In this document: piece by piece, positions 58,121 through 64,000 of the stretch
Position numbering within the stretch: the stretch's first letter is position 1
How the letters are laid out: each line of letters starts with the position of its first letter
Source: Veillonella intestinalis
GTDB lineage: Bacteria; Bacillota; Negativicutes; Veillonellales; Veillonellaceae
Direction of reading: 5' to 3'
Assembly: GCF_943193155.1 (NCBI RefSeq)
Contig: NZ_CALPDB010000002.1
Span: 62,001-126,000 of the forward strand
DNA: 64,000 bases
Notes under the pieces: model-generated
Told to the model about the DNA's origin: nothing
What the model saw: only the letters and a program-made list of their open reading frames with translations
Databases searched by the model: none
Translations under genes and position numbers: made by a program

Positions 58121-58513
58121 TTATTGTACTACGATATCTTTTTCAGATTCCCATAAACCATGGATATTGCAGTAAGAAGTAGCAATCAATTTACCAGATT
58201 TTTTGAAGGAAGCTACTACAACACCAGCTGCTTCAGCAAATACTGGACCTTCGTTAGCACCAGCTGCTGCTTCACCATGTACGTTGAATTCAAGACGAGC
58301 TACTTCAAATGGAAGCGTTGTACCTTCTTCTACATAGTATAATTTAATCCAAGAAATATGATGTTCTGTAGTGTTTGGATGTGCAATATCTTTGCCTACT
58401 TCTAATTCAATTTTTACTTTTTCACCAGCTTTTACAGTGTCAGGTGCTGTAATTACCGGAACGTGTTTTTCATTTTTGAAGTCTGCAGATTTTACATAGT
58501 TACTTAATGCCAT
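58121..58513 (-). CDS. superoxide reductase (1Fe, neelaredoxin type)
   Basis: 130-aa enzyme that reduces superoxide to hydrogen peroxide without making oxygen. The iron ligands are visible: His in EKHVPVI, the HPNTTEHHISWIKLYY stretch and the Cys/His pair in SYCNIHGLWES. The N-terminal desulforedoxin domain of 2Fe types is absent. The start was moved to the ATG at 58511-58513 after GGAGG. Rubredoxin (38755-38889) is its usual electron donor. It has its own promoter and terminator. Confidence 0.93.
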   Translation of the reverse strand: MALSNYVKSADFKNEKHVPVITAPDTVKAGEKVKIELEVGKDIAHPNTTEHHISWIKLYYVEEGTTLPFEVARLEFNVHGEAAAGANEGPVFAEAAGVVVASFKKSGKLIATSYCNIHGLWESEKDIVVQ

Positions 58514-58593
58514 TGTGATAACCTCCTTGGTCATAAGAATATATCCTATAAGAACTTACTTATAGTTTAAAATAATATACTGCTTATAATTTT

Positions 58594-58657: not shown

Positions 58658-59260
58658 TTAAAACTCAATGCCACGGGCTGCTTTAATGCCCTGTTCATAC
58701 GCATGTTTCACCACTTGCATTTCCGTAACTGTATCAGCTTTAGCAATGATTTCAGGCTTAGCATCGCGCCCAGTTAAGACCATATGCAAACGGGTCGGCT
58801 TTGCTTCCAACAACGTAACTACTTGTTCTACCGGCAATAGACCAAATTTAATGGCGTAATTAATTTCATCTAAAATGACTAAATCCCAATTGTCAGACAT
58901 AACTTCATCCGTTAACATTTGCCAAGCATCTTTAGCAGCCGCCTTATGAGCTATCAAATCAGCTTCTGAAGTTTCTTTATTGTGGAAAATAAAACCTTTC
59001 CCCATAGGACGAATTTCAATAGGTAAACCAGCTGCTTGCAATGCTTTGATGCCTTTCAATTCGCCATAGGTAGAACCACCTTTTATGAATTGCAAAATAA
59101 GAACTCGTAAGCCATTACCAACTGCGCGGAGTGCTACACCTAAAGCCGCTGTTGTTTTACCCTTCCCATTCCCTGTATTAACTAAGATTAAGCCCCTTTG
59201 GGATGGCGTAACAACACGCTCATCGCCATCAACCGATGTTTTCGTATCTACTGTGGTCAT
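58658..59260 (-). CDS. cobO: cob(I)yrinic acid a,c-diamide adenosyltransferase
   Basis: 200-aa CobA/CobO/BtuR-type enzyme adding the adenosyl group to the corrinoid cobalt. The P-loop is NTGNGKGKTTAALGVALRA; further blocks are ILQFIKGGSTYGELKG (FIKGGSTYGEL) and LVILDEINYAIKFGLL (LDEINYAI). It starts 2 bp after cbiA ends, so the two are coupled, and it is the last of this cobalamin group in the window. Confidence 0.94.
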   Translation of the reverse strand: MTTVDTKTSVDGDERVVTPSQRGLILVNTGNGKGKTTAALGVALRAVGNGLRVLILQFIKGGSTYGELKGIKALQAAGLPIEIRPMGKGFIFHNKETSEADLIAHKAAAKDAWQMLTDEVMSDNWDLVILDEINYAIKFGLLPVEQVVTLLEAKPTRLHMVLTGRDAKPEIIAKADTVTEMQVVKHAYEQGIKAARGIEF

Positions 59261-59262
59261 CC

Positions 59263-60654
59263 TTACGCCTCCTTAGCACGATAGGCACGCGCCTTAGCAA
59301 TAAATTGTGCTGCCGCTGACTCATTGCCAGCAAAGTTCAAATGTAAGTAAGTAGCTAAAATATTGCCATGACTATAACCACCATTATAAGTTTGTCCTTT
59401 ACGGCCACCTTCAAAATGAAACGCCCACGGGAATGTATCAACTGTCATAGGCTCTACAGGCTCCATGGTAGAAAAGTGGAATTCATGACCTCTTAGACTA
59501 CTGCCTTTAGGAGCTAACAGCGTATCCTGTAGAGCTGTTGCCGTTACATAACCAACTTTTTGTAGTTTAGCCTGCATAACACATTGTGCTGGTACTAAAC
59601 CTACCATAGGCCGTACATTACCTTCAAAGTCAGTAACAGCTTCACATAAATACATTAAGCCGCCACATTCTGCATAAATAGGCATACCCGAAGCAGCCGC
59701 TTCACGAATAGAATGCAACATAGACTGATTTTCACTTAATTGAGTCAAAAACATTTCAGGGAAACCACCGCCAAATAATACGGCATCTACTGATGGCAAT
59801 TCCATATCGGTAAGAGGACTAAAATATACTAAATCAGCCCCTTCATCGGCTAACGCCTGCAAACTCGCAGGATAGTAAAAGGAGAATGCTTCATCATAAG
59901 CAACTCCAATACGCACCTTTGGTTCTGCACTTGCTTTAGCCACTATTTCAGGCACCATAACAGCTGGAGCTGCTTCTGCCAATTTAACTAAAGCAGTTAA
60001 ATCAACGCTTTGCTTAATCGCTTCACGAATAGTATCTAAGGCTGTTTGAGGATTCACTTCCGTAACAGGGGTAAGCCCCAAATGCCGCTCCGGTGAATGC
60101 ATCCGTTCATCACGACGAATAACACCAATCACAGGAATACCCAAACGCTCCATAGCAACACGAATCATATGCTCATGATTATCCGAACCGATGCGATTCA
60201 ATAATACACCGGCTAAATTAACCGTAGGGTCATATTCTTTAAACCCTTTAGCAATCGCCGCTGCACTTTCACCCATCGCTTTGCAATCGATTACTAAAAT
60301 AACAGGTGCCTCTAACGATTTCGCAATTTCCGCAGTCGAGCTAACGCCTTCACGGCCTCCATCATACAGCCCCATTACGCCTTCAATGATAGCTAACTCT
60401 GCATCTCCTGCCATATCAGCAAAAAATGGTTTCATCTTCTGTGGTGGTACTAGCCAAGTATCTAAATTATAACAATCTCGACCACTAGCTAATTTATGAA
60501 ACCCTGGATCAATATAGTCAGGGCCTACTTTAAAGGCTTGTACTTTTTTACCTTGTTCATAAAATGCAGCCAACAAACCCGCTACAATCGTTGTTTTGCC
60601 AACACCAGAATTTGTACCAGCGATGACAACTCTCGGAATAGCATATGATTTCAT
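59263..60654 (-). CDS. cbiA: cobyrinate a,c-diamide synthase
   Basis: 463-aa ATP- and glutamine-dependent amidating enzyme of cobalamin synthesis. The N-terminal P-loop is AGTNSGVGKTTIVAGLLAA, with KVGPDYIDPGFH and VEGVMGLYDG following, and the C-terminal glutaminase domain has the nucleophile in YAECGGLMYL and a GHEFHFS block. The start is 4 bp after cobI/cbiL ends. It gives the substrate for cobO. Confidence 0.95.
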   Translation of the reverse strand: MKSYAIPRVVIAGTNSGVGKTTIVAGLLAAFYEQGKKVQAFKVGPDYIDPGFHKLASGRDCYNLDTWLVPPQKMKPFFADMAGDAELAIIEGVMGLYDGGREGVSSTAEIAKSLEAPVILVIDCKAMGESAAAIAKGFKEYDPTVNLAGVLLNRIGSDNHEHMIRVAMERLGIPVIGVIRRDERMHSPERHLGLTPVTEVNPQTALDTIREAIKQSVDLTALVKLAEAAPAVMVPEIVAKASAEPKVRIGVAYDEAFSFYYPASLQALADEGADLVYFSPLTDMELPSVDAVLFGGGFPEMFLTQLSENQSMLHSIREAAASGMPIYAECGGLMYLCEAVTDFEGNVRPMVGLVPAQCVMQAKLQKVGYVTATALQDTLLAPKGSSLRGHEFHFSTMEPVEPMTVDTFPWAFHFEGGRKGQTYNGGYSHGNILATYLHLNFAGNESAAAQFIAKARAYRAKEA

Positions 60655-60658
60655 AGTC

Positions 60659-61366
60659 TTAGCGATCCTTACGCTTAGCCAATACAGTGGATAAATAATT
60701 TAATTTCAAATCAGCCGGTAGTGTATCAAGGCCACGATATACTTCTTCACCATCAAGACCAACGCGACTAATCATAACAGCATCATCAGCCATATTATGT
60801 TTTTTAAGCGTTTCTTGTACTTCGTGGAAATTACGGTATACCTTCATAATAACAGCATCATCAGCCACTGCTAATACTTTATCAATTTTTTCCTTAGGAG
60901 CTGTAGCTGGTACAATGGCAAGCACTTCTTCTTTTTCTACAATAGGATATCCTAAATGCGAGCCAATAGCACAGAACGCAGTCACCCCTGGGATTGTTTC
61001 AATTTCAAAACCTGTGTTTTCAATCAAACGATATACATACATATATGTGCTGTAGAACATAGGATCCCCTAACGTTAAGAAGACTACATTTTTACCAGCT
61101 TCCAAATAACCTAAAATAACTTTTCGAGCTTCTTCCCAACCAGCGGCTTGTGCATCATCATCAAGCACCATAGGAAATACCACTGGCACAATTTCAGTGT
61201 GAGCCTGAATATATGGTTTAGCAATATTAAGCGCTACAGATCCGTCTTTCTTTTCTGTTTTAGGTGTAATAATAATATCTGCTTCACCTACAATACGCGC
61301 TGCTTTCACAGTCATTAATTCTGGATCTCCAGGTCCTACACCAATACCGTACAATTTACCTTTCAT
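60659..61366 (-). CDS. cbiL: precorrin-2 / cobalt-factor-II C20-methyltransferase
   Basis: 235-aa SAM-dependent tetrapyrrole methylase. GIGVGPGDPELMTVKAARI is the N-terminal family motif; FLTLGDPMFYSTYMYV and IPGVTAFCAIGSHLGYP are the SAM and substrate loops, and 'FCAIGSHLGYPI' is typical of C20-methylases. It makes cobalt-factor III in the anaerobic route, which fits with cbiK upstream. The gene is called cobI in the aerobic nomenclature. Confidence 0.92.
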   Translation of the reverse strand: MKGKLYGIGVGPGDPELMTVKAARIVGEADIIITPKTEKKDGSVALNIAKPYIQAHTEIVPVVFPMVLDDDAQAAGWEEARKVILGYLEAGKNVVFLTLGDPMFYSTYMYVYRLIENTGFEIETIPGVTAFCAIGSHLGYPIVEKEEVLAIVPATAPKEKIDKVLAVADDAVIMKVYRNFHEVQETLKKHNMADDAVMISRVGLDGEEVYRGLDTLPADLKLNYLSTVLAKRKDR

Positions 61367-61472: not shown

Positions 61473-62327
61473 TTATTTTATATTAGGAATAGCTGGTCTA
61501 TGGGAAACACGCCCCTCATAGCGCCCAGCCATAGCATCAGCCAAGTGCTCTACATATAATTGCTGCACTGCCCGATATTCACCGAGCCCTTTCATATGAC
61601 GCACTACTTCATAACCAGCAGCTTCTAAGGACGTTTGCACACTATCTTCCTCATCACCAAAAATATCATTAAGGGCATGATCACCAGCTACTAGCAAAAG
61701 AGGATGAACATGAATTCGACCAGGTCGTTTATTATCCACCCATTCCCAAGGCATCGCCATATCTTCTAATTCTGGAAAACATTCTAAAGTTATGATACGC
61801 ACATTATAATAGCCTTTGCGGAATAATTTTAGTTGCAACGCACTATAAGAGGCATTGCCTACACTCATGCCACCGTGGCCAACCAATAATAAACCTTCTT
61901 CTTTAGGAATTTGTAATGTATCAATAAATTGTTCAATCAAAGCCTCATAATCATCTGGTCGCTCTTCTTGACCTAAGAAGTATAATAATGGACGGCCTAT
62001 TGCAATATGTTGCAAAGAGCCCTGCCCTTGATAGGCCAAAATATTCTGTTTTAATTTATCAAATTCTTCACCACCAATTAGATGTAATGGTTGCACTACA
62101 ATAGACTCATAGCCTTGATTAATTAAATCTTCAATAGCACTTTGTTCGGTATCAATTGTTTCGCCCCGTTCCCGTAAACGCTTAACAATAATACGTGAGG
62201 TAAACGCCAAGCGTACTTCATGCTCTTTATATTGCTTTTTAATAAATTCCACAACAGGATTAATTTGATTTTGACGGGCTGATTCAACCGTCGTGCCAAA
62301 GGCCACTACTAAAATAGCTTGTTTCAT
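61473..62327 (-). CDS. cbiK: sirohydrochlorin cobaltochelatase
   Basis: 284-aa class II chelatase inserting cobalt into sirohydrochlorin, the entry to the anaerobic cobalamin route. The expected metal-site residues of Salmonella CbiK are all recognisable: the acidic pair in PLHLIGGEEFDKL (E87/E88), His151 in LLVGHGGMS and His217 in VAGDHALNDIFGDEEDS. No signal peptide is present. It is 106 bp before cobI/cbiL and is preceded by a terminator hairpin that stands 18 bp from its start codon. Confidence 0.93.
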   Translation of the reverse strand: MKQAILVVAFGTTVESARQNQINPVVEFIKKQYKEHEVRLAFTSRIIVKRLRERGETIDTEQSAIEDLINQGYESIVVQPLHLIGGEEFDKLKQNILAYQGQGSLQHIAIGRPLLYFLGQEERPDDYEALIEQFIDTLQIPKEEGLLLVGHGGMSVGNASYSALQLKLFRKGYYNVRIITLECFPELEDMAMPWEWVDNKRPGRIHVHPLLLVAGDHALNDIFGDEEDSVQTSLEAAGYEVVRHMKGLGEYRAVQQLYVEHLADAMAGRYEGRVSHRPAIPNIK

Positions 62328-62349: not shown

Positions 62350-62369
62350 CGGTCCTCCTCTGAGGACCG
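62350..62369 (-). terminator. terminator between the cbiK-like gene and cbiK
   Basis: Perfect 8-bp GC-rich stem (CGGTCCTC and complement), 4-nt loop, then TTTTT on the minus strand (62345-62349). It ends 17 bp before the cbiK start codon. Confidence 0.85.
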
Positions 62370-62408: not shown

Positions 62409-63290
62409 CTAAGGCTTCACGACTCTCCCCCGCAATGAAGGCTGTCCTGCTTCCTTATTTGATTGACTTGCTTGTTGTTTACGTTCAATCATACGAATTG
62501 ATTGTGCTAAATGTTTTAAGAATAAATCTTGGATAAATGGATTTTCCCCTAGCCCTTCATTCCATATAGTAACGCCATACCCTTCTTCGGTTAATAAGGT
62601 CGCTACAGAATCAGAACGATCACCACCAAGGAAATCCATTAAATGCTCCGATCCGATAAGGGCCAATGGCACCACTAATACTTCCTTATGATCTAAACGC
62701 TCTAATAAGGTTAAAGCCTGTTTAAAATTAGGAAAACCATTGGAAGTAAAGACAGCTACATTTTGGCCATTACCATATAAACATTTTAATTGCAAAGCAC
62801 TAAATTCTAATTGATTCTGTCCATTAGCCATTAATAAAATAGACTTATTTAGAGCGCGAATATTTACATGCTTCATAATCGCATCAATGGTGGCTACATA
62901 ATCATCCGCATAATTTTTTACCCCTAAAGAACTGAGCAATGGCTTCCCTACATGAATACGCATTACATTGCGGTCACAATTATAAGTAAATGTAGCAATC
63001 GCTTTGCGCATCTTTTGATAACATTGATCAGCTACTAATGCAAAAGGTAATACAAAAACATCTCGTACATCTGTATTTTTAAAATCAGTTAACACATCTT
63101 CTAAAGACTGTACAGGATTCTTATATTTTTCGTTCCACTTCTCGATTAACGCATCTGCTAAAAATACACGACGAATTACTGCATCAGGATAGGCTTTTTT
63201 TATTTTAGCTTCCATAATGCCTACGGATTTCTCTACTGCTTCACCATAAATAGACCCAAATGTGGCTAAAATAATACCCTTTGTACTCAT
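62409..63290 (-). CDS. CbiK-like protein lacking most chelatase metal ligands
   Basis: 293-aa protein of the CbiK fold, colinear with the cbiK product at 61473-62327 but with a changed active site. The block PLHLIGGEEF becomes PFALVADQCY (acidic pair lost), LLVGHGG becomes LLMANGQ (His replaced by Asn156), and only the third ligand, His216 in IGSEHLMDF, remains. Conserved fold blocks such as SALQLKC and GGDRSDSVATLL persist. A Fur-family-like palindrome overlaps its promoter, and a terminator follows it, so it can be expressed apart from cbiK. It could chelate or carry another metal or tetrapyrrole. GGAGG precedes the ATG. Confidence 0.85.
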   Translation of the reverse strand: MSTKGIILATFGSIYGEAVEKSVGIMEAKIKKAYPDAVIRRVFLADALIEKWNEKYKNPVQSLEDVLTDFKNTDVRDVFVLPFALVADQCYQKMRKAIATFTYNCDRNVMRIHVGKPLLSSLGVKNYADDYVATIDAIMKHVNIRALNKSILLMANGQNQLEFSALQLKCLYGNGQNVAVFTSNGFPNFKQALTLLERLDHKEVLVVPLALIGSEHLMDFLGGDRSDSVATLLTEEGYGVTIWNEGLGENPFIQDLFLKHLAQSIRMIERKQQASQSNKEAGQPSLRGRVVKP

Positions 63291-63424: not shown

Positions 63425-63453
63425 ATGATACGTTAGATTTAGTTTTTAGTCAA
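63425..63453 (-). promoter_or_regulatory. promoter of the cbiK-like gene
   Basis: Minus strand: TTGACT at 63448-63453, 17-bp spacer, TATCAT at 63425-63430. Predicted start near 63418, leader about 128 nt. A plus-strand extended -10 (TGGTATAAT, 63418-63426) overlaps it. Confidence 0.65.
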
Positions 63454-63470
63454 TGAGAATTTTTCTCATT
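63452..63470. promoter_or_regulatory. Fur-family-like palindromic operator
   Basis: AATGAGAA-TTT-TTCTCATT, a 19-bp perfect inverted repeat that fits the 7-1-7 layout of Fur/PerR/Zur boxes. It overlaps the -35 of the cbiK-like gene by 2 bp. Confidence 0.6.
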
Positions 63471-63791: not shown

Positions 63792-64000
63792 TTATGGTTG
63801 CGAAAATACTCTTGGTGCTGCTACTTCAAATATTTCAGCAATCATTTTCAAATATTTACCTTCAATTAATGTCCGTTTCCGTTCACTTTTCGTAATCAAC
63901 CACAACTGGCGACCATTATAGGTAATTCGCAATAAACTATTAATATATTCATTAAAGTCCTCTTCACCCATAGCGTCTTGCAAGGCTAACAGTTTTGAAT
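63792..64000 (-). CDS. C-terminus of a protein with a DnaA domain I-like fold (cut by window edge)
   Basis: The last 69 codons of a gene that runs off the right edge; the frame is open to 64000. The pattern L-x5-EEDFNEYINSLL, then ITYNGRQLWLITKSERKR and LIEGKYLKMIAEIF, resembles the N-terminal domain I of DnaA, which binds helicase and regulators, but here it ends the protein. Replication-initiation or regulatory proteins sometimes carry such a module. The rest of the protein is unseen, so the role is open. Confidence 0.55.
   Translation of the reverse strand, partial: SKLLALQDAMGEEDFNEYINSLLRITYNGRQLWLITKSERKRTLIEGKYLKMIAEIFEVAAPRVFSQP

Follow-up and report, generated by a model that had tools for sequence, protein, structure and literature searches.

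Class II chelatases grip their metal with two histidines and one glutamate (PMC11301274). In the cobaltochelatase CbiK of Salmonella the catalytic pair is His145 and His207 (PMC7689651), and in a related chelatase the loss of either histidine abolishes activity (PMC4063343). The heme-handling protein HmuS binds heme at a class-II-like head/neck interface (PMC12583661), which shows that a ring can be bound by class-II-like folds other than for the usual chelatase reaction. Our literature search found no paper joining the terms 'CbiK' and 'pseudoenzyme'.

Here we examined a CbiK-fold protein, referred to as PARA, that is encoded in the window (the whole 64,000-nucleotide stretch of DNA analysed) of a 2.03 Mb Veillonella genome. 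Its open reading frame (62409..63290, minus strand; 293 aa) has exactly the coordinates first noted for it and is preceded by a good Shine-Dalgarno sequence. PARA matches the Pfam CbiK family (PF06180) over its full length, with 139.5 bits across residues 4-265 against a cut-off of 26.2 bits. The score against the NCBIfam equivalog NF047852 is 103.7 bits for a cut-off of 400, which the intact neighbouring cbiK also misses (183.4). AlphaFold2, supplied with a 42-row alignment, predicts a two-lobed class II chelatase fold (pLDDT 90.9), and the top-ranking structures that it resembles are FetB, Salmonella CbiK (TM 0.90 to 1qgo) and Desulfovibrio vulgaris CbiK-P. An earlier note on this DNA had held that the fold motifs are kept, and both the full-length family match and the superposition on Salmonella CbiK bear this out. 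By eye, the N-terminus (MSTKGI) runs straight into the first strand and no hydrophobic leader was seen. Orthologues with 79-94% identity occur in V. seminalis, V. ratti, V. magna and further Veillonella.

Alignment places N156 of PARA at the position of Salmonella His145, N184 at that of Glu175 and H216 at that of His207. Glu175, located by alignment, is presumably the third ligand of Salmonella CbiK, in line with a paper on SirB/CfbA; the role of the corresponding Glu in CbiK-P was reportedly described by Romao in 2011. Salmonella Glu89, invariant in 55 of 55 canonical rows, is C90 in PARA, and this cysteine is itself replaced by serine in 2 of 51 orthologue rows. These 51 rows come from ~28 genomes, some of them counted twice, and N156, N184, Q89, D88, Q158, Q160, E162, S214, H216 and D219 are invariant throughout. 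Since N156, N184, Q89 and H216 never vary, the substitutions are neither chance nor sequencing error. The new invariants D88, Q89, Q158, Q160, E162, N184, S214 and D219 indicate that the pocket has apparently been re-tooled, not decayed. H216 and H260 are the only invariant histidines and no cysteine is invariant; the N-half motifs (FGS and ADQCY) contain no invariant histidine, and the N-lobe positions used by SirB and CbiX-L have gained no histidine, so that a rebuilt two-His metal site appears unlikely. PARA is a member of the CbiK fold family but lacks the metal site that defines a cobaltochelatase, with N156, N184 and H216 in 51 of 51 rows where two histidines and one glutamate would stand.

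The earlier note had compared PARA with the neighbouring CbiK and read a change of GGEEF to ADQCY and of GHGG to ANGQ, with the third ligand histidine retained; both changes are real, the retained histidine is H216 (51 of 51 rows), and Asn156 and Gln89, whose fixation it left to an orthologue alignment, are fixed in all 51. Its view that the canonical site is dismantled holds, although it missed the loss at the Glu175 position (N184). What it called an acidic pair was correct for the conserved glutamate, now C90, and incorrect for Q89, whose position is variable in working enzymes (E, A, D, I, M, S or others) and is not a ligand position. Its suggestion that PARA may carry or deliver a metal is unlikely because H216 is the sole pocket ligand remaining.

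A class-wide search found PARA in 28 of 28 Veillonellaceae genomes and in no other family of the same order. The N156, N184 and H216 states were fixed in all 28, and pairwise dN/dS among near species is ~0.02-0.07. Between genome G000 and genomes G002, G003 and G006, dN is 0.05-0.06 for PARA versus 0.14-0.17 for cbiK; in most pairs within genus g1 the cbiK value is some two to three times that for PARA (G000/G002: 0.054 for PARA vs 0.150), and in the closest pairs the two are about equal (G000/G005: 0.061 vs 0.055). PARA is under strong purifying selection, and its fixed states, low dN/dS and mostly lower dN than cbiK show that it is not decaying.

Five other Negativicutes genomes contain relatives of PARA with the same His-to-Asn change and with D88, Q160 and E162. 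In these Asn relatives an aromatic residue replaces the Asp of ND and, unlike in PARA (N184), a Glu or Asp is kept at the second ligand position, so that the histidine was probably lost before the glutamate. The inspected strong matches elsewhere in the phylum, outside the class, were all canonical with H and E intact. In a quick tree built without the motif columns, PARA and the Asn relatives fall together (support 100). Placing PARA in a clade with Veillonella cbiK instead lowers lnL by 24 without these columns and is not rejected (AU p 0.137), nor was it in an earlier quick test on a larger tree (AU p 0.569), whereas the full set of columns rejects it (AU p 0.0001). With this tree, and with the AU tests split, an origin of PARA as a simple tandem copy of the neighbouring cbiK appears disfavoured.

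The Asn relatives adjoin genes for CobN and/or nitrogenase-like NflHDK, a TonB receptor, a BtuF-like protein and methylmalonyl-CoA mutase, with several cobalamin riboswitches among them, and no Fur-like site was found beside the non-Veillonella relatives; the ancestral context would thus have been corrinoid, not iron. Three Asn relatives from three families share 70-71% identity, which points to horizontal transfer. The Negativicutes clusters at L129, L130, L131, L133 and L135 hold CobN and/or NflHDK, several cobalamin riboswitches and genes for a TonB receptor, BtuF-like protein, CbiZ and methylmalonyl-CoA mutase; the CobN gene beside the PARA relative at L131:12429-14383 is in fragments and apparently a pseudogene. 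Two other Veillonella genomes have CobN, ChlD-like, BtuF-like, CbiZ and NflHDK genes on one stretch each (G002:C29:15655-26487 and G003:C11:78798-89773). CobN and NflDK had no match in the window's own genome and are patchy in other Veillonella, which rules out CobN or nitrogenase-like genes as a requirement for PARA.

The region upstream of PARA contains a Fur-box-like palindrome, AATGAGAAAAATTCTCATT (63452..63470, minus strand), 161-180 bases before the start codon. With up to one mismatch, 0 matches to it are expected in the window and no shuffle of the window gave one as good; upstream of PARA its best score was reached by 0 of 1000 shuffles. A promoter, TTGACT-17-TATCAT (63425..63453, minus strand), overlaps the end of the palindrome with its -35 element, and the two are conserved together in genera g1 and g2. 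The box is directly followed by GAC in g1, g2, g3 and most g4 genomes, its last two bases opening the TTGAC of the -35 element. Box scores before PARA (maximum 16) are 13-15 in g1, 14-15 in g2 and 15 in g3, and those in five representatives were reached by 0-1 of 1000 shuffles, while scores before cbiK are at chance level. Genus g4 has two weaker, degenerate boxes, and in genome G009 the best score was reached by 228 of 1000 shuffles. A Fur-type operator overlapping the promoter is therefore conserved among orthologues, strongly in g1, g2 and g3 and weakly in g4, and box and promoter are kept in six g2 genomes where PARA lies away from the cob genes on its contig. Exact matches to the generalised pattern AATGANAANNNTTNTCATT occur three times in the window's own genome: upstream of PARA, of a DUF3793-flavodoxin operon and of a gene for an Fe/Mn superoxide dismutase; with one mismatch the pattern has 7 sites against 4 for a reversed control pattern, so these weaker matches are uninformative. 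Genes for flavodoxin and superoxide dismutase are classically controlled by Fur. The PARA promoter thus looks like one carrying a putative iron-repressor (Fur) site, an assignment made from sequence alone through motif, placement and co-targets. The DUF3793-flavodoxin operon (L245:321-1519, on G000:C2) follows its exact site at 302696-302714; we know of no function for DUF3793.

Downstream, an intrinsic-terminator-like hairpin, CGGTCCTCAGAGGAGGACCG followed by TTTTTG (62350..62369, minus strand; z-score -4.0), separates PARA from cbiK and suggests that PARA forms a predicted transcript of its own. The canonical cbiK that follows immediately (61473..62327; H151, E182 and H217 intact, by profile match and alignment) precedes cbiL, encoding cobalt-factor II C20-methyltransferase (60659..61366; family match), both on the minus strand. 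The rest of the cobalamin block (58658..60654, minus strand) comprises cobB-like (59263-60654) and cobO-like (58658-59260) genes, named from resemblance of their translations and from conserved order with cbiK-cbiL. A desulfoferrodoxin-domain protein (58121-58534, minus strand) ends the block and keeps this place in most Veillonella genomes seen. The own genome has a third CbiK protein just outside the window (L005:4777-5808), with a signal-peptide-like N-terminus judged by eye and a btuF-like gene after it. No cobalamin riboswitch was found upstream of PARA; the nearby one (L005:4382-4551) precedes this periplasmic CbiK. Upstream of PARA lies a gene for a 114-aa protein, orf114 (63793-64000, continuing outside the window; L005:3793-4137, minus strand), with a weak match to DnaA_N (E 0.0024, below cut-off). 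It stays with PARA in g2 genomes where PARA has moved, and in another family it lies beside the periplasmic CbiK. We rejected orf114 as a functional partner: it is linked to PARA in g1 and g2 yet not near it in g4, so the linkage probably reflects shared ancestry of position.

The lost ligands together with the iron-repressor-like site suggest that the likely task of PARA at low iron is to handle a ring of heme or B12 type, not to insert cobalt. Our tentative preference, which we hold as a possible reading, is for an iron-responsive, cytoplasmic, non-chelatase tetrapyrrole-binding protein that buffers or carries the ring. PARA would be made when iron is short and stay in the cytoplasm, where its cleft may bind sirohydrochlorin, siroheme or heme; H216 alone could then serve as axial ligand, and the floor would be rich in Asn/Gln. 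Less sirohydrochlorin- or heme-type ring would then pass to iron insertion while iron is scarce. Binding of such tetrapyrroles is plausible, the more so given the iron-type operator; an operator of this kind before the gene for a ring-binding fold suggests that PARA takes part in the ring economy at iron shortage. Iron-holding rings should be in demand because Veillonellaceae carry ferrochelatase and siroheme-type reductases. Both families occur in 14 of 14 Veillonellaceae genomes searched, and none of 9 relatives from other families has ferrochelatase; as PARA orthologues all come from this single clade, the co-occurrence counts are not independent. A more doubtful, wider proposal is that PARA belongs to an unrecognised class II chelatase subfamily in which NG-x-x-Q-x-E replaces the catalytic HG (His to Asn), which abandoned metal insertion for ring handling, and which in Veillonella may be wired to iron starvation and set how B12, siroheme and heme share the uroporphyrinogen-derived ring pool.

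An unlikely alternative is that iron-starved cells use PARA to strip heme or siroheme of its iron, the CbiK cleft working in reverse with H216 and an amide-rich floor. The iron-type operator would suit this, as would the CbiK-like FetB of Porphyromonas, which according to a review may exchange porphyrin metal (PMC13402209), and HmuS, a de-chelatase (PMC12583661) whose class includes the CobN found beside PARA relatives. However, FetB keeps all three ligand positions, the PARA cleft offers no second His or Glu as metal acceptor, and CobN is absent from PARA's own genome. It is likewise unlikely that PARA remains a chelatase whose metal choice or mechanism has changed, for instance the siroheme ferrochelatase of Veillonella. 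Its universal presence in the family fits this reading, and the siroheme-type reductases imply that Veillonella must make siroheme, but H216 and H260 are the only invariant histidines, there is no invariant cysteine, no histidine has shifted to the N-terminal lobe, where SirB and CbiX-L have theirs, and siroheme iron can come from canonical CbiK itself (PMC7689651).

Also unlikely is that PARA, without catalysis of its own, assists or regulates CbiK or the periplasmic CbiK. PARA adjoins cbiK in g1, g3 and g4, and in g3 and g4 its gene runs divergently to that of the periplasmic CbiK, but it lies far from both in the six g2 genomes, and it has its own conserved promoter and operator and a predicted terminator before cbiK; the earlier suggestion that it regulates its partner is not supported by these features. 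That PARA is a recent duplicate of cbiK becoming a pseudogene is barely credible. Adjacency, homology and the joint clade not rejected without motif columns are compatible with duplication, but the clade fails with all columns and a gene fixed, intact and strongly purified in every genome examined contradicts decay.

Veillonella combines B12 synthesis, ferrochelatase and siroheme-type reductases, so that three metal branches draw on related rings. PARA, being genus-wide, strongly conserved, unable to chelate in the known way and preceded by an iron-type operator, offers a specific candidate, open to testing, for control of how rings are apportioned when one metal runs short. The automatic label 'sirohydrochlorin cobaltochelatase' is probably wrong for it.

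Among described systems, HmuS shares with PARA an iron/heme context and heme at a class-II-like interface (PMC12583661); it is class I, CobN-like and five times the size, whereas PARA resembles the class II fold only. FetB of Porphyromonas gingivalis (9b86) is the top Foldseek match (TM 0.87), and its heme/porphyrin handling in an anaerobe resembles the role proposed here, but it is a surface protein according to its literature and keeps the three ligand positions. Salmonella CbiK (1qgo, 2xwp), a sirohydrochlorin cobaltochelatase, shares the fold (TM 0.90 normalised to target length, at 21% identity), the third His and the C-terminal GLGEN motif; PARA differs in the Asn residues at the His145 and Glu175 positions, the Cys at Glu89, the changed ND after the third His and the Fur-like operator. 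D. vulgaris CbiK-P (2xvx, 2xvz), periplasmic and heme-binding, also has the fold (TM 0.86-0.87), and work by Lobo from 2017 reportedly makes it the precedent for a CbiK turned heme binder. Unlike PARA, for which no export signal was seen by eye, CbiK-P is exported and keeps H154, E184 and H216; its Veillonella counterpart is the third paralogue at L005:4777-5808.
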